A program made the translations under genes and the position numbers. The notes below the pieces were generated by a model that was not told where the DNA came from, did no database searches, and saw only the letters and a list, made by a program, of their open reading frames with translations. From Rhodospirillales bacterium (GTDB lineage Bacteria > Vulcanimicrobiota > Vulcanimicrobiia > Vulcanimicrobiales > Vulcanimicrobiaceae), in NCBI GenBank assembly GCA_025359485.1, contig JANYGA010000119.1, forward strand, positions 1-39,448: a DNA stretch of 39,448 nucleotides, in the 5' to 3' direction. Shown piece by piece: positions 22,326 through 36,484 of the stretch (position 1 is the first letter of the stretch; each line of letters opens with the position of its first letter).

Positions 22326-22518
22326 CGCACAAAAATCCCGGGGAAAACTGCTCGACGACCACGATGCGTCGATCGATGCGCTTCACGAGAAATTGAAAAA
22401 AAACACCGACACGGCGCACCACGCGGGACTTCATCACGCGATCGAAGGCGTGAAGAAATCGATGAAGGCTCTGCGCGACGACGACGCGTTCGGTTCGCCG
22501 GGAAATGAGACGGTCTAA
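22318..22518 (+). CDS. Small charged protein of unknown function
   Basis: 66 residues starting MTDAQKSRGKLLDDHD, highly charged and probably helical, with a His-rich middle (TAHHAGLHHAIEG) and repeated Lys and Asp. I do not recognise a family. Its ATG lies inside the last codons of the cyclase gene (eight-base overlap), which suggests translational coupling and a link to the signalling protein. An alternative ATG nine codons earlier (MPIMRF) is possible. The stop TAA at 22516-22518 overlaps the TAG of the sedolisin gene on the other strand, so both transcripts end on the same bases. Confidence 0.6.
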   Translation: MTDAQKSRGKLLDDHDASIDALHEKLKKNTDTAHHAGLHHAIEGVKKSMKALRDDDAFGSPGNETV

Positions 22519-24002
22519 CCACTCAGCCGTTCGTACAGGACTTCACCATCTGGAACGCCGAGCCCCGAGGCGGGCGACCATCCGGGGCCGGCGTCGTACC
22601 GATCGTTGCCACCCGTCGTAATCGCGCGTAATGGCGTTTGCGCCGCGTTCGAAACGTAAAGGAGCGGCGCGAAGAATCCGGCTCGAGCGCCGAGGCGTTC
22701 GTTGAGTCGCGCGACGAGTGCGGCCCAGAGCGGGGCGACAGCGCTCGTCCCCGTCGTAAAGGTCGCCGCGCCGTGGTACACCATCCGATACCCCGGGTCG
22801 ACTTGCGCGGAAACGTCGGGCAATCCACGCGACGTGTGGTTCGAATCGGTTCGCGTCGCGGCGTAAGCAGCGATGGCTTCGCGTTGCCATGGTGGCGCTT
22901 CACCACGTGCCGCGAATCCGCCGCCGGATTGCGGCCACGAACGCTCGTGACCGTCCGTCCCGATCGTCGTGCCTCCACATGCCAAGATGTAGTGATTCGA
23001 CGCTGGTGCGTTGACGTGGGCGTCACCGCATTCGTCGATCGCCGCGCCGGAATCGCCCGATGCGGCGAGCAGCGTCACGCCGAGCAAGGCCGCAACGGCG
23101 GCGAGTTCGTCGAGTCGTGCGAATGCCGCGTGCGTCCATCGGTATTCGAGATGGCCGAAGCTGATCGATAGCGTTGCGGGTCGCCGCTCGTCGAAGAGCG
23201 CACGTTCGATCGCATCGAGAAAGCCTCGTTCGCCGTGCGATGTCGTATAGAGGACGATGCGCGCATCGGGCGCGTGCGCTGCGATGACCTGCACGTCGAT
23301 TGCGAGTTCGCCTTCGAACGTTTCGATATGATGACCGCTAGGCGACGCGCCGTCGCACGCTACGATCTCCGGTTCGGCCGCACGCACGCCATGTGCGGTA
23401 AGTGCCGCGACGAAATCGTCTTCGTCGAACGTACCGCCGAAGCGCAGGATGCCGATCGTCTCTCCGCGGCCCGTCCATTCGCTCCCGAAGTTATATCGGA
23501 TGAGTGTTTGTGCGGCGAGTTCGGCGCGTGCGTCGCGCGCGCTCGACGCGGCTGCCGGTGCATTCGTCGCGCCCGTTGCCGGCGCGACGAATCGCGGCCA
23601 GGCATCGAGTCCGAAGATTCCGCGAACGAGCGGTGCGATCGAGTCCGGTGCCGCGAGCGCCGTCGTTCGCCGGTGGAATGGCTCGGATCGACCGTATCGG
23701 AAATCGGCGATCTTCGTCGCAAATGCCCGTTCGTAATCTCCGATCCGTCCCGATGTAACGACGCTTCGAAAGCCCGAAGCGACGATCTCGATATCGTGAT
23801 CCGCGCAAAACGTTGTAATCCGCGCCCGTGCGTCGGCGCTCGTGTCGAGATCTCGAAAAAGCTCGCGCCGATCTACGTACGAACGCAATCGAGGCGAAAG
23901 CGCGCCGAGCGCGGCGATCGTCTCCATTGCGATTCGATCGTCGCGCTCGCCACGCAACCAAAGCGTCGCGCGGATGCGTTCGTCGCCTGCCGCCCGTCCC
24001 AC
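22515..24002 (-). CDS. Sedolisin (S53, kumamolisin-type) serine-carboxyl peptidase
   Basis: 495 residues from a GTG at 24002. A propeptide domain (about 1-135: AMETIAALGAL, VVTSGRIGDYERAF, VRGIFGLDAWPRF) is followed by the subtilisin-fold catalytic domain. Catalytic residues are E232 and D236 (GELAIDV), oxyanion D317 (SGDSG) and S420 in TGTSAVAPLWAAL, the S53 signature. The C-terminal calcium loop is present (YDAGPGWSPASGLG). The family is acid-active and usually secreted, but no signal peptide is seen. Family-like N-terminal sequence (LDDGSAHPWRGATFV) continues before the GTG with no standard start codon; a CTG at 24053 overlapping the DUF5069 stop would include it. It ends the Lrp-KDD-KamA-DUF5069 run. 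Confidence 0.88.
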   Translation of the reverse strand: MGRAAGDERIRATLWLRGERDDRIAMETIAALGALSPRLRSYVDRRELFRDLDTSADARARITTFCADHDIEIVASGFRSVVTSGRIGDYERAFATKIADFRYGRSEPFHRRTTALAAPDSIAPLVRGIFGLDAWPRFVAPATGATNAPAAASSARDARAELAAQTLIRYNFGSEWTGRGETIGILRFGGTFDEDDFVAALTAHGVRAAEPEIVACDGASPSGHHIETFEGELAIDVQVIAAHAPDARIVLYTTSHGERGFLDAIERALFDERRPATLSISFGHLEYRWTHAAFARLDELAAVAALLGVTLLAASGDSGAAIDECGDAHVNAPASNHYILACGGTTIGTDGHERSWPQSGGGFAARGEAPPWQREAIAAYAATRTDSNHTSRGLPDVSAQVDPGYRMVYHGAATFTTGTSAVAPLWAALVARLNERLGARAGFFAPLLYVSNAAQTPLRAITTGGNDRYDAGPGWSPASGLGVPDGEVLYERLSG

Positions 24003-24049: not shown

Positions 24050-24481
24050 TCAGCCCGCGTTGCCTCGCGCGAAGAGGAGCCGATCGTCTTCGGCGATGAC
24101 GTCGAGTGAGAGACCGAAGTCGCTGCGACCCGCGAGAAACGGATAGGCTTCGACGGCTTTAACGGGATCGCCACCCTGGGGCTTGCGGGCGTCGACGAAG
24201 CGATGCCAAGCGTCGATGCCGCCTGGCTTCGCGTGCGCGGTCACGAACGTCGCGATACCGTCATCGCTCGTCGCCGTGCGTACCGCATCGGTGAATGCGA
24301 CGAGCGTTATGCCGAGCGCATCGAGCATCATCGTCGTGAGGCCCTCGATGAGATACTCACCGAGATGGCCACCGGGAAGCGTCGCGCGAATCTTATCGAT
24401 CGATCGCGGCAGAAAACGAATCCCGGCGAGTTCTTCGCGCGGCGCACGCGGCGGCGCCTTGGTGAGATCGAGGGCTTCCAC
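24050..24481 (-). CDS. DUF5069 family protein
   Basis: 143 residues beginning MEALDLTKAPPRAPREELAGIRFLPRSIDKIRATLPGG, close to the DUF5069 pattern (DLTKxPPRSPRxxLxGxxxLPRxIDKARAxLxG), followed by a short helical DDGIATFV segment. Its function is unknown. It has no signal peptide or membrane segment. It starts one base after the KamA stop on the same strand and ends at the sedolisin start region, so it is inside the lysine-degradation operon. That position makes a link to lysine or peptide metabolism plausible, but no catalytic residues can be named. Confidence 0.75.
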   Translation of the reverse strand: MEALDLTKAPPRAPREELAGIRFLPRSIDKIRATLPGGHLGEYLIEGLTTMMLDALGITLVAFTDAVRTATSDDGIATFVTAHAKPGGIDAWHRFVDARKPQGGDPVKAVEAYPFLAGRSDFGLSLDVIAEDDRLLFARGNAG

Positions 24482-24482
24482 G

Positions 24483-25862
24483 TTACGCGCTCACATACGT
24501 CGGCATGCCGCCCGCTTTCGCGACGGCTTCGGCGATCATCTCCTCGGCGATCGATGGATTCTGCCAGCGTGCTTGCGCGGCGGGAACGAGCAGATCGATC
24601 GGATCGAAGTAGACGAAATGTGCGCCCGGTTTGACGCTCGGCGCGGAGTAGATGACGATACCGTTCTCGCGATCGTAGTGATCGAAGCTGTGCACGTCGC
24701 GCTTGCCGCCGCCGCCGGGTGCGTCGCAGATGAACATCGGCGTATTGAAGCCGGCGGTCGAGCCGCGGACGGCTTTCTCGATGTCGACCGATGTCTGGAC
24801 GGTCGTGCGCAGGTCTTCGACGCCCTTGACGAGGTCGTGCATGTAGACGTAATACGGGTGCACGTTGATATAACTCAAGCGCTTGACCAATAAACGCATC
24901 GTGTCGGCATCGTCGTTGACGCCACGGATGAGGACGCTTTGATTGCGCACGGTCACGCCACGTTCGAAGAGCAGCGCCATCGCGCGCTGGGTGATCGCGG
25001 TGATTTCGCTCGGTGAATTGAAGTGCGTGTGTACGACGACTTCTTTGCCGAGTTTTCGGCCGGCGTCCACGACGCCCACGAGCGCATCGGTCCACGCGTG
25101 ATCGGTGAGAATTTTCATCGGCATCACGGCCGGGCCTTTGGTCGCGAAACGCAAGCGGCGAACGTGCGGAATCGCGAGCAACGCATCGCCGATGAGCGTG
25201 ATATTTTTCGGCGCGAGTTGGTACGTGTCGCCGCCGGAGATCACGATATCTTCGAGCTCGGGGCGGGAGGCGATATAGGCGAACGCGTCCTGCCACTGCT
25301 TGGGCGTTTTGGCGAGCGAGACTTTTTCGACGACGTCGGTATCGCCGCCGATCGCGTACGAGCGCGTGCAGAACCGACAGTAGACGGGGCACACGTTGAG
25401 CGGCAGAAAGAGCGCCTTATCGACGTAGCGATGCGTGAGCCCGGGTACCGGAGAATCTTCGAGTTCGTGCAGCGAATCGAGCGTGAGCCGCGGATGATCG
25501 GCGCGTAACTTCGATGCGACGGGAATGAACTGCGTGCGGATCGGGTCGCGGTACGGTTGCGACCAATCGATCGATGCGATCATGTACGGCGAAACGCGCA
25601 CCGCCATCGGCGCGCGACGAAACCCTTCGCGCACGTCTTCGAAGAACGACGGATCGACGAGTTCTTTGACGGTATCGAGCAGATCTTCGGGCGACTTGAT
25701 CGAGTTCTGACCCTGCCAGATATGATCGAGAAACGTCGCTTCGTCGACGTCGCGATATTTCGGAATCGCACGCCAGAATTCGCCGTCGCGTAGTTCGCGG
25801 TGGACGAAGGCGTCGGGCCCCGCGGGCGGCTTGATGGTGTGTTCGCGCGCGATCGTTTCCAT
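24483..25862 (-). CDS. kamA: Lysine 2,3-aminomutase (radical SAM)
   Basis: 459 residues, near the 416-470 usual in the family. The radical SAM cluster motif is C158-x3-C162-x2-C165 in CPVYCRFC. PLP Lys387 lies in the PGGGGKRDV motif, and the family motifs ISGGD, PMKILTD and RNQSVLIRGVND are present. It would convert L-lysine to beta-lysine using a [4Fe-4S] cluster, SAM and PLP. The ATG at 25862 is preferred over one at 25892, because AAGGGA precedes it at the right distance and the longer start overlaps the KDD gene. It is ten bases after KDD, in an operon whose first gene is Lrp-like. The next enzyme in the pathway, the B12-dependent 5,6-aminomutase, is not nearby. Confidence 0.95.
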   Translation of the reverse strand: METIAREHTIKPPAGPDAFVHRELRDGEFWRAIPKYRDVDEATFLDHIWQGQNSIKSPEDLLDTVKELVDPSFFEDVREGFRRAPMAVRVSPYMIASIDWSQPYRDPIRTQFIPVASKLRADHPRLTLDSLHELEDSPVPGLTHRYVDKALFLPLNVCPVYCRFCTRSYAIGGDTDVVEKVSLAKTPKQWQDAFAYIASRPELEDIVISGGDTYQLAPKNITLIGDALLAIPHVRRLRFATKGPAVMPMKILTDHAWTDALVGVVDAGRKLGKEVVVHTHFNSPSEITAITQRAMALLFERGVTVRNQSVLIRGVNDDADTMRLLVKRLSYINVHPYYVYMHDLVKGVEDLRTTVQTSVDIEKAVRGSTAGFNTPMFICDAPGGGGKRDVHSFDHYDRENGIVIYSAPSVKPGAHFVYFDPIDLLVPAAQARWQNPSIAEEMIAEAVAKAGGMPTYVSA

Positions 25863-25872
25863 TGGCGTTCCC

Positions 25873-26955
25873 TTAACTCCGAACGGTGGCATGAGGTGGC
25901 ACGGCCGAGCCGTATCGGGCGATAAAATAATCGCGTAGCGCCGGGCGATCGCGTAGCGTCGCGAGCGCGATTGCGGCGTGGCCCTTCGCGTAGCCGTTGC
26001 CGACGATCATCGTCACGTCCTTACCGACACCTTCGGCACCGAGTGCGGCTGCCGTAAACGACGTGCTCATCGAGAAAAAGTAGACGGTGCCTTCGTCGCG
26101 CGTGATGAGAATCGAAGCGAGTTCCGTGCCCGCAACGTTGACGCAGTTGATCGTGAGATCGGCGAGCATCGGCAGCACTTCGGGCACGGCTGCGAGCATC
26201 GCGAGCGTATCGCGCGCGTCGGCTGCGACGAACGTATCGACGTAGCCCTGGTCGACGAGGAAGCGCGCGCCGACCGTCGTGGCATCGGGCCCGAAGCCGA
26301 CGACACGCCCGGTCGGGCCGACGCGTTCGCGCGCCTGGACGCAGGCGAGCATGCCCGACTTTCCATCGGCACCGAGCACGGCGACGGTCATGCCGGGTGC
26401 GGCGAGGCGGCGGACTTGCGCGGGTGCGCCCGCAACGTCGAGGACGGCGAGCGTGACGTCGGCGGGAAGATCTTCGGGTAATTTCGCATAGGCGCCGGTC
26501 GCGAAGAGCGTCGCCGTGCCGCGAATCCAAATGCGCCCCGTCGCCAGATCGATGCGCTCGATCGCCTCGATGCGCAGCGGCGTGAGCGTGAGCGAAACCA
26601 GCGACGCGATCCGATCGCCCGGCGAGAGATCGTGCGTGCTGCGCAGCGCCGCGCCGATCTCGCGTACGCGGCCGAGAAACATGCCGCCGCTACCGGTAAC
26701 GGGATTGTGGTGTTTGCCACGTTGCGCGACGAGGGCGAGCACGTGCTCGGCGATGCGGGTCTCGTCGAAGTCGCACGCCTCGGCGATCTGACGGAACGAG
26801 GCCGAGTCGATGTTGAGCGCATCGACATCGCAGAGGATCTCGTTCTCGTGCGCGACCGGCGTCGCATCGAGCTTCCACGCAGCCTGCGGCAGGCTCATCG
26901 TGGGCTCGAGCACGCGGTGCGTGCCGAGGGGACACGGCCGCAGTACGGCGTTCAC
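25873..26955 (-). CDS. kdd: L-erythro-3,5-diaminohexanoate dehydrogenase
   Basis: 360 residues with the recognisable KDD start GTHRVLEP, then LPQAAWKLD and a SGGMFLGRV stretch; a Rossmann part (VAVLGADGKSGMLA, about residues 190-203) binds NAD. KDD oxidatively deaminates 3,5-diaminohexanoate to 5-amino-3-oxohexanoate, the third step of anaerobic lysine breakdown to butyrate and acetate. The GTG start at 26955 overlaps the Lrp-type stop (GTGA), so translation is coupled to the regulator, and kamA follows after ten bases. The pairing kdd-kamA is typical of lysine fermentation clusters. The neighbours kamD, kamE, kce and kal are not in this window. Confidence 0.93.
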   Translation of the reverse strand: MNAVLRPCPLGTHRVLEPTMSLPQAAWKLDATPVAHENEILCDVDALNIDSASFRQIAEACDFDETRIAEHVLALVAQRGKHHNPVTGSGGMFLGRVREIGAALRSTHDLSPGDRIASLVSLTLTPLRIEAIERIDLATGRIWIRGTATLFATGAYAKLPEDLPADVTLAVLDVAGAPAQVRRLAAPGMTVAVLGADGKSGMLACVQARERVGPTGRVVGFGPDATTVGARFLVDQGYVDTFVAADARDTLAMLAAVPEVLPMLADLTINCVNVAGTELASILITRDEGTVYFFSMSTSFTAAALGAEGVGKDVTMIVGNGYAKGHAAIALATLRDRPALRDYFIARYGSAVPPHATVRS

Positions 26956-27470
26956 GCCGAACCGCCGACGGCGCGCAGCCGCTTTGCCGAAGCCAGGTCG
27001 GCCGTCGCATCCTCGAGGGCGAGGCCATCGCGTTCGAAGGGGGTCGAGAGGACGATCGTCGTTTTCGTGCGCCCGATGCCGGCGATCGTTTTGAGACGTG
27101 AGAGAAACGCATCGAGATGGCCGGTCGAACGCGTGACGACCTTGAGCACGAACGACTCTTCGCCCGCAACGCTGTGGATTTCGGCAACTTCGGGGAGCGC
27201 TGCGACCGCGGCGCTGAAACGATCGTAGTCGACGTCGGCCGTCGTGAAGGCGCTGACGAACGCCACGAGGCCGTACCCGAGGCGCGGCGCGTCGAGGCGG
27301 GCCGCATATCCGCGGATATACCCGCGTGCTTCGAGACGCTTGACGCGATCGTGAACGGCTGGCGCTTTGAGGCCGACGAGCACGCCGAGCTCGGCAAACG
27401 TCGACCGCGCGTTACCCTGAAGGGCGCGTAGGAGGCGGAGGTCGAGATCGTCGAGGTCGCTTACGAACAC
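26952..27470 (-). CDS. Lrp/AsnC-family transcriptional regulator
   Basis: 172 residues. An N-terminal winged helix-turn-helix (about 6-60: LDDLDLRLLRALQGNARSTFAELG, then KAPAVHDRVKRLEARGYIRGY) is followed by the RAM ligand-binding domain (about 68-150: LVAFVSAFTTADV, IHSVAGEESFVLKVV) and a short extra tail. Family members bind amino acids and control their transport and breakdown, usually including their own gene. As the first gene of the kdd-kamA operon it is the likely lysine-responsive regulator; this is inferred from position. It starts at GTG 27470 and diverges from the peptide-binding lipoprotein over 151 bases, so it may control both directions. Confidence 0.9.
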   Translation of the reverse strand: MFVSDLDDLDLRLLRALQGNARSTFAELGVLVGLKAPAVHDRVKRLEARGYIRGYAARLDAPRLGYGLVAFVSAFTTADVDYDRFSAAVAALPEVAEIHSVAGEESFVLKVVTRSTGHLDAFLSRLKTIAGIGRTKTTIVLSTPFERDGLALEDATADLASAKRLRAVGGSA

Positions 27471-27621
27471 AAGGAGGGTCTCCGGGTCGTCGAACAGCTT
27501 TATCGTTCGGTATGTGGAGCGTACACCAGACGCTTTCTTCGGTGCAAGCTATGAACGGCCGAATAGTTCACACGGTCTGCGGTCGACTTCGAAACCCGAT
27601 CGCGGACCGGGAGAGCGTGAG
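27471..27621. promoter_or_regulatory. Divergent control region, Lrp operon / peptide-binding operon
   Basis: 151 bases with no gene. An inverted repeat TGAAC-N9-GTTCA lies at 27552-27570 and could be an operator, perhaps for the adjacent Lrp-type regulator, though it does not resemble the E. coli Lrp consensus. GGGAG at 27609-27613 is the ribosome site for the ATG at 27622. No clear -10/-35 pair was found. Confidence 0.35.
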
Positions 27622-29277
27622 ATGACGGCAAACGGCCGGACCGTGCCCATTCACATCGCCGCATCCAACGCGCTCCGTGCCGCAAGTTGGGCCGTCGCGC
27701 TCGTCGCAGCGGGGTGTTCGCAGCCGGCGAGCGGCGACGCGCGCGCCTCCACGTTGCGCTTCGACGTTGCGGCCGATCCCGCCAACCTCAATCCGCTTTT
27801 CGCCCATACCGATGCGGGCAACGTGGAAGGGCAACTCGCGCATCTCGCCTTCGAACCGTTCTTCGACCTCGATGCGCGCGGGAAACCCGTTCCCGAGTTG
27901 CTCGCCGAACTTCCCACGGTCGCCAACGGCGGACTCTCGCGCGACGGCCGCACGATCACGTATCGCTTGCGCGCGGGGGTGCGATGGAGCGACGGCGTGC
28001 CGCTTACTTCGCGCGATGTGCTCTTCACGCTGCACGCGATTCTCGATCCGCGAAATCCCGTCGGCTCGCACGAGGGCTACGACCTCATCGATCGCGCGCA
28101 AGCGCCCAACGCGCACACCGTGCGCTTCCATCTGCGACGTGCGTGGGCGCCCGCGGTCGCGACGTTCTTCACCTACGGCACGAGCCCGCAATACGTCTTG
28201 CCCGAACACGTGCTCGCAAAAGCGGGACCGCTCGCTACGGCCGCCTTTAACGCTAAGCCGAGTGTCGGCGACGGGCCCTTCACGTTCGTTGCGTGGACGC
28301 GTGGCGATCGCGTGCGCTATGCCGCGAATCCGACGTATTGGCGAGGCGCTCCCAAGATCGCGCGCATCGACGTTCGCATCGTTCCCGACCCCGGCACGAA
28401 TCTCACGCTGTTGCAAGCCGGCGACCTCGATTTCAATCTCGTCGCGCCGTCGCAGCAAAACGCGCTCGTTCGTTCGAACGCGAAACTCGGCTACGCCTAC
28501 GCGCCGACGGCGCTCATCGCGGGAATCGCGCTCAACGTCACGCACCCACCGCTCGACGACGCGCGCGTGCGTCGCGCGATCGCACGAGCGATCGATCGCC
28601 GCGGCATTTCGACCAAGATCACGCTCGGCAAATATCCCGTGGCCGAAAGCGATCGGCCGCGCTTTTCGTTTGCCTACGATGCGCGGATCGCACAACCGCG
28701 ATACGATCCCGCGGCTGCCGATCGCACGCTCGATGCCGCGGGCTACCGGCGCGGTCCCGGTGGCATGCGCCGTAAAGACGGCAAGCCGCTCGCATTCACC
28801 TACGTGCAATTTCCGGAAACGACGACGGGTGTGCGTGCGGCGGCACTCGTGCAACGCGAGCTCTTCGATCGCGGCATCGACGTCACGATCAAATCGATCT
28901 CGAACGCGCAACTCTTTCTCCCCGCGCGCGACGGTGGCACGCTCGCTCGGGGTGGCTTCGACATGGCCTACGTGCCCTGGACGATGGGCGCCGATCCCGA
29001 CGACCGTTTCTTGCTCGCATGTACGGGCGGCGTCAAGAACTATATGCGCTACTGCGATCGCGACGTCGACCGTCTCGAATCCGCTGCTGCAGCGGAGCCC
29101 GACCGCGCGAAGCGAAAGCTCGCATACGCCCAGATCGACGCGCGGATCGCGCGGGACGTTCCGATCGTGTATCTCTTCAACCCAAACTATATCTACGCGT
29201 ACGCGCCGCGACTGCAGGGCTTCGCACCCAACGCCTTCGTGCCGACGTGGAACGCCTACGCTTGGAGCTTACGATGA
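27622..29277 (+). CDS. Peptide/nickel-type ABC substrate-binding lipoprotein (SBP_bac_5)
   Basis: 551 residues. A lipoprotein signal (lipobox VAAGC, Cys32) is followed by the family 5 binding-protein fold: ASTLRFDVAADPANLNPLF, ITYRLRAGVRWSDGVPLTSRDVLFTL, VGDGPFTFVAWTRGDRVRY and NPTYWRGAPKIARIDVRI are all characteristic motifs of DppA/OppA-type proteins. It would be anchored outside the membrane and bind oligopeptides or similar ligands. No permease or ATPase genes are beside it; instead it is translationally coupled (ATGA at 29274-29277) to an aldehyde dehydrogenase. The ATG at 27622 has a GGGAG site; the frame stays open upstream without related sequence. Confidence 0.9.
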   Translation: MTANGRTVPIHIAASNALRAASWAVALVAAGCSQPASGDARASTLRFDVAADPANLNPLFAHTDAGNVEGQLAHLAFEPFFDLDARGKPVPELLAELPTVANGGLSRDGRTITYRLRAGVRWSDGVPLTSRDVLFTLHAILDPRNPVGSHEGYDLIDRAQAPNAHTVRFHLRRAWAPAVATFFTYGTSPQYVLPEHVLAKAGPLATAAFNAKPSVGDGPFTFVAWTRGDRVRYAANPTYWRGAPKIARIDVRIVPDPGTNLTLLQAGDLDFNLVAPSQQNALVRSNAKLGYAYAPTALIAGIALNVTHPPLDDARVRRAIARAIDRRGISTKITLGKYPVAESDRPRFSFAYDARIAQPRYDPAAADRTLDAAGYRRGPGGMRRKDGKPLAFTYVQFPETTTGVRAAALVQRELFDRGIDVTIKSISNAQLFLPARDGGTLARGGFDMAYVPWTMGADPDDRFLLACTGGVKNYMRYCDRDVDRLESAAAAEPDRAKRKLAYAQIDARIARDVPIVYLFNPNYIYAYAPRLQGFAPNAFVPTWNAYAWSLR

Positions 29278-33563: not shown

Positions 33564-34991
33564 TTACTCCTGGATCGCTTTGACCGCCGTGACGAGCTTA
33601 TCGACTGAGGCCTTCGCATCGCCGAAGAGCATCGACGTATTTTCGAGCGCATAGAGCGGATTGTCGATGCCAGCGAAGCCGGGCTTCATCGATCGCTTCA
33701 TCACGACGACCTTCGTCGCCGCATCGACGTCGAGAATCGGCATGCCGTAGATCGGACTCGACGTGTTCGTGCGTGCGTCGGGATTGGTGACGTCGTTCGC
33801 GCCGATGACGAGCGCAACGTCGGTCTTTGGAAACTCGGGGTTGATCTCTTCCATGTCGATGAGCGCGGGATACGGCACGTTCGCTTCGGCGAGCAACACG
33901 TTCATGTGTCCGGGCATGCGACCCGCGACGGGATGGATCGCATACTTCACCTCGACGCCTTTGGCTTCGAGTTGATCGGCGAGTTCGCGCACCGCGTGTT
34001 GCGCTTGCGCGACGGCCATGCCGTACCCCGGTACGATGACGACCTGTCGTGCCTCGGCGAGCATGTGCGCGACGTCGTCGATCGAGGATTCACGAATCGT
34101 CGCATCCGCTGAAACCGACGACCCTCCCGAACCCGCAGCCGGCGCCGAGCCGAACGCACCGAAGAGCACGTTTGCGACGGAGCGATTCATCGCCTTACCC
34201 ATCATGAGCGTGAGCAACGTTCCCGACGCACCGACGAGCGCGCCCGCGATGATGAGCACGTCGTTGCTCAGCGCGAAGCCTGTGAGCGCCGCGGCCAAAC
34301 CAGTAAAGGAGTTGAGTAACGAGATGATGACCGGCATATCCGCGCCGCCGATCGGCAGGACGAAGAGCACGCCGAGGATCGCCGCCGCGACGAGCGATGC
34401 GAAGAATGCGGGCACGGGTTGATAGCCGATCGAGACGGCAACGATACCCGCAACGGCGATCAGCGCGAGGATCGCGTTGACGATCTGCTGCCCGGGATAC
34501 ACGATCGGCCGACCGGTCATCAACTCCTGAAGTTTGAGAAACGCGATGATCGAGCCCGTGAAACTGATCGCGCCGATGACGGCCGTGAGCACGCTTGCGA
34601 TCGCGAGATCGATCGGCACGTTGCCGTGCGTCGCGTCGAGTTGGCGCAGATACTCCGCACTCGCCACCATCGCTGCGGCACCACCGCCGCAACCGTTGAA
34701 GATCGCGACCATCTGCGGCATCGCCGTCATCTTGACCGCCCGAGCGAAGTAGATGCCGACCGCCGCTCCCGCGCCGAGACCGATGAGACCGATCCACCAC
34801 GCGGCTGCGAAGTTGAGTTGGAAGCCCGTCGCGACGAGCGCGATCGTCATGCCCGCGATTGAAACGGTATTGCCCTGACGCGCGGTCGCGGGCGAATTCA
34901 TGAGTCGTAAACCCACGATGAAGCAGATGCCGGTGAGCAGATACGCCGTCGTGATCAGGAGTTGCGTCGGGCCGCCGATTGCGGTTTCCAT
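33564..34991 (-). CDS. pntB: NAD(P) transhydrogenase subunit beta
   Basis: 475 residues. About nine hydrophobic helices (domain II) occupy roughly the first 265 residues, followed by the soluble NADP-binding domain III (VVIVPGYGMAVAQAQ, GRMPGHMNVLLAEANVPY, VALVIGANDVTNPDA, and PVYGMPILDV-like SPIYGMPILDV). This subunit carries the proton channel with PntA2 and moves hydride between NADH and NADP+ at domain III. Start ATG 34991 directly abuts the PntA2 stop at 34992. The operon order pntA1-pntA2-pntB is the three-subunit form found in many bacteria. It would supply NADPH from the proton gradient. Confidence 0.96.
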   Translation of the reverse strand: METAIGGPTQLLITTAYLLTGICFIVGLRLMNSPATARQGNTVSIAGMTIALVATGFQLNFAAAWWIGLIGLGAGAAVGIYFARAVKMTAMPQMVAIFNGCGGGAAAMVASAEYLRQLDATHGNVPIDLAIASVLTAVIGAISFTGSIIAFLKLQELMTGRPIVYPGQQIVNAILALIAVAGIVAVSIGYQPVPAFFASLVAAAILGVLFVLPIGGADMPVIISLLNSFTGLAAALTGFALSNDVLIIAGALVGASGTLLTLMMGKAMNRSVANVLFGAFGSAPAAGSGGSSVSADATIRESSIDDVAHMLAEARQVVIVPGYGMAVAQAQHAVRELADQLEAKGVEVKYAIHPVAGRMPGHMNVLLAEANVPYPALIDMEEINPEFPKTDVALVIGANDVTNPDARTNTSSPIYGMPILDVDAATKVVVMKRSMKPGFAGIDNPLYALENTSMLFGDAKASVDKLVTAVKAIQE

Positions 34992-35348
34992 TTACTGCAC
35001 GCCCTCTTCGGTGAGCACGATCGTGAGCGGGTCTTTTTTCTTGACGGCGACCGCGGCGCTCGCGGGTCGCGGTTTGAACATCGCGAGCATGCGCTGCGTT
35101 ACGACGTAACCGCCGAAGACGTTGAGCGACGCGAGGAAGACGGCGATGATCGACAGCACGGGCCCCAAGCGCGGTTCGAGCACGACGGCGACCAGGAGTG
35201 CGCCGACGAGCACGATTCCGTGGATGGCATTGGTTGCCGACATGAGCGGCGTGTGGAGCGTCGGCGGCACTTTCGAGATGAGCTCGACACCGACGAAGAC
35301 CGCCAAAACGAAGACGGTCAGTTCGGACAGCAGATGGGCGACGTTCAC
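34992..35348 (-). CDS. pntAB: NAD(P) transhydrogenase subunit alpha 2 (membrane part)
   Basis: 118 residues with three to four hydrophobic helices (LTVFVLAVFVGVELI, IVLVGALLVAVVL, VLSIIAVFLASLNVFGGYVV) and a basic tail, the membrane part of the alpha subunit that is a separate protein in this type. The conserved PPTLHTPLMSATNAIHGI stretch is the family signature. It starts with GTG 35348 in a GTGA overlap with the pntA1 stop, and pntB begins at the next base after its own stop, so all three are translated as one coupled unit. Confidence 0.95.
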   Translation of the reverse strand: MNVAHLLSELTVFVLAVFVGVELISKVPPTLHTPLMSATNAIHGIVLVGALLVAVVLEPRLGPVLSIIAVFLASLNVFGGYVVTQRMLAMFKPRPASAAVAVKKKDPLTIVLTEEGVQ

Positions 35349-36484
35349 TTCGAGCTCCCGGCGAGTGCGGCTTTGGTGGGTTCGTGGACGATGACGCCGT
35401 CGCGCACGAGCATCGTGCCCGCGACGATTTCATCGGACGCATCGAGCGTAAGCGTGCCGCCCTTACCGATGAGTTCGAGCAACGCGTTGATGTTGCGCGA
35501 GTACAGGACGCTCGCATCGAACGGCATCGTCGATGGCAGATTGGTCGTGCCGATGATCGTCACGCCGTCGACGTCGATCGTCTGCCCGGCCACCGTGAGC
35601 GCGCAATTGCCGCCAGTTTCGGCGGCCAGATCGACGATCACCGATCCCGGACGCATGCCGCGCACGGCATTTTCATCCACGAGTATCGGCGCGCGCCTCC
35701 CGGGCACGGCGGCCGTCGTGATCACGATATCGACGGTATGAATGTAGCGTGAGAGAATGCGCTGCTGCTTGGCCGATTCTTCCGGCGTTAGCGCGCGTGC
35801 GTAGCCGCCCGTGCCTTCGCCCGAAATGCCGAGATCGATCTCGACGAAGGCGGCATCGAGCGACTGCACCTGTTCTTTGACGGCGGCACGCGTATCGTAG
35901 CCCGAGACGATGCCGCCAAGTCGTTTGGCGGTCGCAATCGCGCGCAAGCCCGCGACGCCCGCACCGATCACGAAGATCTTTTGGGACTTGACCGTTCCCG
36001 CAGCCGTCGTCTGCATGGGGATGAAGCGCGGCGACGCGGCGGCGGCGAGAATGACGGCCTTGTAGCCACCGATGTTCGCCTGCGACGACAGCGCGTCCAT
36101 ACTCTGCGCGCGCGTCGTTCGCGGGATCGCGTCCATCGAGAGCGCGGTGATGCCCGCCGCGGCATACGCTTCGACCGATGCCGGATCGCCGAGCGGAGAG
36201 AGAAACGCCAGGAGGCTTTGGCCCGCGCGCATGTGTGCGAGCTCGTCGCTCGTCGGCCGCGCGACCTTCGCGATAAACTCAGCTTTCGCGAAGACGACGG
36301 CCGCGCCGCTCGCGAGCGTCGCACCGGCCTCGACGTACGAGGCATCGGGAAACGAGGCCGCGATTCCGGCGCCGCTTTGCACGATGACGGTGTGACCCGC
36401 TTTCACCAACTTCGCGACCGTTTCGGGAACGAGCGCGACGCGCCGTTCGCCGGGAACGATTTCGGTCGGAACGCCGATCAGCAT
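35345..36484 (-). CDS. pntAA: NAD(P) transhydrogenase subunit alpha 1
   Basis: 379 residues forming the soluble NAD(H)-binding domain I. MLIGVPTEIVPGERRVALVPETV is the start typical of PntA and alanine dehydrogenase; QANIGGYKAVI and VIGAGVAGLRAI (Rossmann GxGxxG near 174-179), then IVDLAAETGGNC, are PntA-specific features. It is the first gene of the operon. A clear AAGGAG ribosome site precedes the ATG at 36484, and a ten-base-stem hairpin lies in its leader. It passes hydride between NADH and the beta subunit. Nothing unusual in the coding sequence. Confidence 0.96.
   Translation of the reverse strand: MLIGVPTEIVPGERRVALVPETVAKLVKAGHTVIVQSGAGIAASFPDASYVEAGATLASGAAVVFAKAEFIAKVARPTSDELAHMRAGQSLLAFLSPLGDPASVEAYAAAGITALSMDAIPRTTRAQSMDALSSQANIGGYKAVILAAAASPRFIPMQTTAAGTVKSQKIFVIGAGVAGLRAIATAKRLGGIVSGYDTRAAVKEQVQSLDAAFVEIDLGISGEGTGGYARALTPEESAKQQRILSRYIHTVDIVITTAAVPGRRAPILVDENAVRGMRPGSVIVDLAAETGGNCALTVAGQTIDVDGVTIIGTTNLPSTMPFDASVLYSRNINALLELIGKGGTLTLDASDEIVAGTMLVRDGVIVHEPTKAALAGSSK

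Follow-up and report, generated by a model that had tools for sequence, protein, structure and literature searches.

The window analysed here is one whole contig of 39,448 nucleotides (G000:C181; GenBank JANYGA010000119.1) of the 2.95 Mb draft genome, in 296 contigs, of a bacterium of the family Vulcanimicrobiaceae. On its minus strand lie, consecutively, genes for an Lrp/AsnC-type regulator (lrp), a 3,5-diaminohexanoate dehydrogenase (kdd), a lysine 2,3-aminomutase-like enzyme (kamA) and a DUF5069 protein, followed by a sedolisin-like protease gene. An initial annotation, made from the letters alone, had described this Lrp-KDD-KamA module with its DUF5069 gene, had seen no 5,6-aminomutase (KamDE) and no later enzymes (Kce, Kal) of lysine fermentation nearby, and had proposed that the pathway was either split over the genome or re-routed. 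The module is real: its genes match their family profiles, they are consecutive on one strand, and their order recurs across the family. It is very probably one of several dispersed groups of the known lysine degradation (fermentation) pathway.

26952-27470, minus strand: lrp, Lrp/AsnC-type regulator, first gene of the module (PF01037 and PF13404 above cut-off)
25873-26955, minus strand: kdd, L-erythro-3,5-diaminohexanoate dehydrogenase (NF052381; PDB 7dl3)
24483-25892, minus strand, start at 25892 or 25862: kamA, divergent lysine 2,3-aminomutase-like radical S-adenosylmethionine (SAM) enzyme (TIGR00238; PDB 2a5h)
24050-24481, minus strand: DUF5069 gene, probably a passenger behind kamA (PF16798, 59.8 bits, cut-off 27)

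Kdd scores 243.8 bits against NCBIfam NF052381 (cut-off 200), and its nearest PDB chain is 7dl3 (E 8e-86). The coupling of lrp to kdd, also remarked on in the initial annotation, is a 4-base overlap, and the same overlap is found in 17 of the 24 loci in which all three genes were called. Profile searches for KamD, KamE, Kce and Kal gave no match inside the window. We found kamD, kamE, kamC, kce, kal and a kamB-like gene, the last below cut-off, on other contigs of the same draft genome. KamD is present as two pieces, one at C277:7437-8312 (profile positions 1-293) and one at C11:4600-4680 (profile positions 481-507), each running into a contig end. KamE adjoins the second piece and scores 342 bits (cut-off 280); KamC scores 319 bits (cut-off 300), Kal 184 bits (cut-off 160), and Kce was found as a BKACE protein (PF05853, 321 bits, above cut-off). 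The KamA family model has a single match in this genome, hence kamDE and kce do not sit beside a second kamA copy, the arrangement that would have spoken against the initial annotation. A missing 5,6-aminomutase is ruled out by the KamD and KamE matches, and the genome holds the complete lysine degradation gene set (KamD, KamE, Kce and Kal alongside KamA and Kdd), with the kamD gap and the Kce score as caveats.

We surveyed 41 genomes, comprising this one and 40 relatives from the families f1, f2 (sister) and f3 (neighbouring) of the same class. KDD matched in 26 of them, KamD in 24, KamE above cut-off in 24, BKACE in 27, Kal above cut-off in 26 and the KamA family in 40 (38 above cut-off). 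Cross-reading the per-genome rows places all six enzymes (KamA, KDD, KamD, KamE, Kce, Kal) together in 21 of the 41. Eight f1 or f2 genomes do not have the full set: G001 (70% complete) is without BKACE, G009 without KDD, and G014 without KamA, its kdd running into a contig end; G018 and G021 are without KDD, KamD, KamE and Kal, G022 and G028 are each without KamD and KamE, and G027 is without KamD, its KamE and Kal not being above cut-off. Across 149 genomes of the phylum, KamA-like matches occur in 129 and KDD in 100. Two genomes of another family of the phylum (f16; G145 and G147, loci L299 and L312) cluster kdd, kce, kamC, kamD and kamE without kamA, and in G145 KamA is encoded on a separate contig and falls in a further clade. 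Two of the f1 genomes named above, G018 (L270) and G021 (L274), have kept kamA with no lrp match beside it.

The order lrp-kdd-kamA is constant over the 26 KDD loci of the survey wherever the contig reaches (L088 is cut by a contig end before lrp, L086 before kamA), and its recurrence is far from chance. In f1, every contig-visible KDD locus reads lrp-kdd-kamA, usually with a divergent SBP_bac_5 gene, while kamD-kamE stand separately and kamB-kamC-kce-oppB-oppC form a third group. A KamB match lies beside kce in 18 of 20 Kce loci and a KamC match in 15; L154, one of the two without KamB, is cut there. The f2 genomes G025 and G026 carry one cluster of lrp-kdd-kamA, a response regulator, kamB, kamC, kce, oppB and oppC; G027 (L070) has this cluster but lacks kamBC in it, and the contig of G028 runs out in kamC. 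In G007, a complete relative assembled as one contig of 3,508,363 bases, distances between the pathway groups run from tens of kilobases to megabases, with about 0.4 Mb between kdd-kamA and kamDE:

3,264,762-3,267,172: kdd-kamA
2,865,044-2,867,301: kamDE
2,933,663: kal
886,967: kce

Because the other enzymes are encoded elsewhere in the genome, lrp-kdd-kamA is found family-wide, and f2 genomes hold kamBC and/or kce in the same cluster, we conclude that the pathway is dispersed over several loci and not re-routed. Of the two options in the initial annotation, the split thus stands and re-routing is not needed. The named loci closest by KDD come mostly from metagenome-assembled genomes (MAGs) of Candidatus Eremiobacterota, a phylum whose name is now Vulcanimicrobiota in the database lineage. 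Among 71 named KDD loci that do not come from Eremiobacterota MAGs, 54 have a KamD match in the surrounding stretch (two of these matches being weak, and several stretches short), versus none of nine Eremiobacterota loci.

The KamA of the window scores 235.7 bits against the KamA family model TIGR00238 (cut-off 199.2) and matches PDB 2a5h by sequence with E 4e-65. Residues C168/C172/C175 (CxxxCxxC), D353, D390 and K397 align to the catalytic residues of 2a5h, and these are kept in all 46 class sequences compared, 33 of 33 f1/f2 rows and 13 of 13 rows labelled f3; here and in the tail counts below, the rows labelled f3 include L270 and L274, both from f1 genomes. D293, D330 and K337 of lysine 2,3-aminomutase we take to be the aspartates that hold the lysine side chain and the lysine that binds pyridoxal phosphate (PLP). 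The C-terminal cysteines of the SB4 lysine 2,3-aminomutase, presumably a structural zinc site, have no counterpart here, all 50 class sequences having zero or one cysteine beyond the PLP lysine; they are likewise absent from 12 of 52 canonical-clade sequences, so that their loss is neither unique nor decisive. An AlphaFold2 model of KamA (mean predicted local distance difference test score, pLDDT, 82.7) superimposes on 2a5h with Z 39.7 and a root-mean-square deviation of 2.5 Å over 336 residues, and the next entry in the structure search follows at Z 16.8.

In a quick KamA tree the class sequences form a single clade (21 rows, support 99), separate from a canonical KDD-linked group (51 rows, support 87) and a betaproteobacterial group (12 rows, support 100); branches are long and the joins between these clades unsure. 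The tree covers 91 of 120 sequences, namely all f2, phylum and other rows, eight f1 rows and nine labelled f3, of which L270 belongs to the f1 genome G018. This KamA is a class-specific divergent subfamily with the catalytic residues and fold of lysine 2,3-aminomutase.

All 12 f3 genomes have a KamA family match, and none of the 12 has a match to KDD, KamD or BKACE, or one above cut-off to KamE or Kal. Eleven of them have lrp immediately upstream of kamA, and the twelfth is truncated there by a contig end. The pair is also present in both of two further f3 genomes, and no kdd match was found in the f3 lrp-kamA stretches. The beta-lysine acetyltransferase AblB, a search suggested by the initial annotation, turned up in none of the 41 genomes above cut-off (there were five weak partial matches), and the same was true of EpmA/GenX, whose strong matches were lysS-like. 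On present evidence these results reject both an N-acetyl-beta-lysine osmolyte route and the beta-lysylation of elongation factor P. Because AblB and EpmA did not rise above cut-off, any beta-lysine produced in f3 would be without a known user among those sought.

Two histories of kdd are conceivable: insertion between lrp and kamA in the lineage of f1 and f2, or loss from f3. On the direction the two trees disagree: in the KDD tree (92 of 115 sequences) f1 and f2 form one group with support 95, whereas in the KamA tree f2 groups with f3 with support 99. We tentatively suggest, as a possibility somewhat short of even, that the KamA subfamily of this class, which is paired with lrp, did not originally serve lysine fermentation, that in f3 it makes a beta-amino acid whose fate is yet to be described, and that insertion of kdd in f1/f2 recruited this enzyme instead of a canonical lysine 2,3-aminomutase.

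The gene content is that of lysine fermentation, whose enzyme steps are set out in PMC3149608, and family membership predicts the reactions, the regulation and the transport. KamA would convert L-lysine to beta-lysine, which KamDE, kept active by the reactivase KamBC, would turn into 3,5-diaminohexanoate. Kdd would oxidise this to 3-keto-5-aminohexanoate; Kce would cleave the product, with acetyl-CoA, into 3-aminobutyryl-CoA and acetoacetate, and Kal would release ammonia to leave crotonyl-CoA. Genes for acyl-CoA dehydrogenase, 3-hydroxybutyryl-CoA dehydrogenase and thiolase lie near kamDE in several f1 genomes and would fit oxidation of crotonyl-CoA. Lrp is probably the regulator of lrp-kdd-kamA, and a peptide transporter probably forms the intake side.

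The fermentation pathway of Clostridium and Fusobacterium, including its kat variant (PMC3149608), has the same set of genes for KamA, KamDE, Kdd, Kce, Kal and KamBC, but here they are spread over several loci, KamA is of a different subfamily, and the cultivated member of the lineage is aerobic. Compared with KamA/AblA (2a5h, TIGR03820), the window's enzyme shares the fold, the radical SAM cysteines, the PLP lysine and the two aspartates, but scores under half the equivalog cut-off, has no cysteine cluster in its tail and belongs to a separate clade. Betaproteobacteria (Rhodoferax, Dechloromonas, Paucibacter, Aromatoleum) carry kamA-kdd-kamB-kamDE-kal-kce clusters with the same pathway, an adjoining Lrp-type gene and a KamA that is likewise outside the canonical clade. 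Their version differs in being a single compact cluster with lrp divergent rather than in the operon, and their KamA forms a further clade, 27-29% identical to that of the window.

Several observations weigh against the assignment to lysine degradation. The kamD of the genome itself is split by an assembly gap, with about 187 residues unseen and no intact gene seen; Kce, at 366.6 bits, falls below the Kce equivalog cut-off of 382, and the KamB-like protein, at 174 bits, below its cut-off of 210. In G007, a search limited to the 19 kb around kce (L165, G007:C1:878000-897000) gave no KamB or KamC match. KamA scores 252.3 bits against the lysine 2,3-aminomutase equivalog TIGR03820, under half of its cut-off of 525.4. 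An f3 KamA scores 246 bits and one from Dechloromonas 317 against the same model, which is passed by the KDD-linked KamA of Porphyromonas uenonis (637.3) and by that of G043, from another class of the phylum (589.4). Because of that low score, the conversion of L-lysine to beta-lysine by this KamA is predicted from family membership. The cultivated member of the lineage, Vulcanimicrobium alpinum WC8-2, is described in PMC9758169 as an aerobe that grows neither anaerobically nor by fermentation, and as not using L-lysine as sole carbon source in a medium with vitamin B12. Our searches of one literature library found no report of a lysine degradation pathway in Eremiobacterota/Vulcanimicrobiota.

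That growth result, the f3 lrp-kamA pairs without the other enzymes and the separate KamA clade would all suit a different account, namely that KamA in this class mainly produces beta-lysine, or some other beta-amino acid, for a non-degradative purpose under lrp control, with kdd a later addition and degradation secondary or rarely active. We consider this unlikely, as all 24 f1 and f2 loci whose two ends can be seen have kdd between lrp and kamA, the other pathway enzymes co-occur as a full set in about half of the genomes surveyed, and the beta-lysine users sought did not reach cut-off. A pathway in which kdd and kamA work with other enzymes on another substrate, without KamDE, would account for a module standing alone in its window, but is very improbable given KamDE, Kce and Kal in the same genome and their co-occurrence with KDD. 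Dispersed lysine degradation remains the reading that we prefer.

The initial annotation had also put DUF5069 forward as a possible new member of the pathway. The gene starts one base after the kamA stop, just outside 24483-27470, which is what favours the idea, yet a DUF5069 profile built here and run over 142 kdd/kamA loci matched only that of the window, and every one of the 41 genomes has PF16798, the 12 that lack the pathway among them. With no recurrent neighbourhood, a role for DUF5069 in lysine degradation is hardly credible, and we rejected it. The window copy is at most 33% identical to 30 other copies compared. A scan of DUF5069 against PHROGs returned nothing, its single-sequence structure prediction was poor (mean pLDDT 50.3), and we found no literature on the family. 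Another DUF5069 paralogue, with higher scores, is found near a lysyl-tRNA-synthetase-like gene in six of eight loci, at distances of 80 bases to about 1.7 kb. The synthetase is named from a TIGR00462 match and by eye, and additional such pairs are visible in the genome-wide match coordinates:

G000:C176:3308-3742 (L320): DUF5069 paralogue near the synthetase-like gene in the window's own genome
L318, L319, L321, L322 and L324: the same paralogue near the synthetase-like gene

Two further genes flank the module:

27622-29277, plus strand: family 5 solute-binding protein (peptide/oligopeptide type), divergent to lrp (PF00496, 250.7 bits)
22515-24002, minus strand: sedolisin-like protease with a pro-kumamolisin activation domain, downstream of DUF5069 (PF09286)

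Of the 26 KDD loci, 21, the window included, have an SBP_bac_5 gene close to lrp, and its place beside lrp is conserved in f1; the sedolisin-like protease had no match in the remaining KDD loci. Further along the window (33564-36484), three genes that by eye encode NAD(P) transhydrogenase subunits belong to clusters m20, m32 and m33, which recur near lrp-kdd-kamA with 14, 10 and 10 members in the 26 loci. Upstream of lrp, 10 of 25 regions (window 27471-27720 and 24 other loci) contain the inverted repeat CCGA-N7-TCGG, versus at most five in 20 single-base shuffles, a weak signal given the relatedness of the loci and the many repeats that were tried.

For annotation, these results carry a warning that a pathway should not be read as truncated just because its kdd-kamA module has no kamDE close by. 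A pathway known from anaerobes, with radical SAM and B12 radical enzymes, is conserved in a family with an aerobic cultivated member, and with WC8-2 in culture, experiments can ask directly whether the pathway serves nitrogen supply, salvage or life in a microoxic niche. In f3, the orphan pair of lrp and kamA points to an as yet unassigned use of a beta-amino acid. The interest of the locus thus lies in a dispersed pathway in an aerobic lineage, and in a class-specific KamA that also occurs without it.

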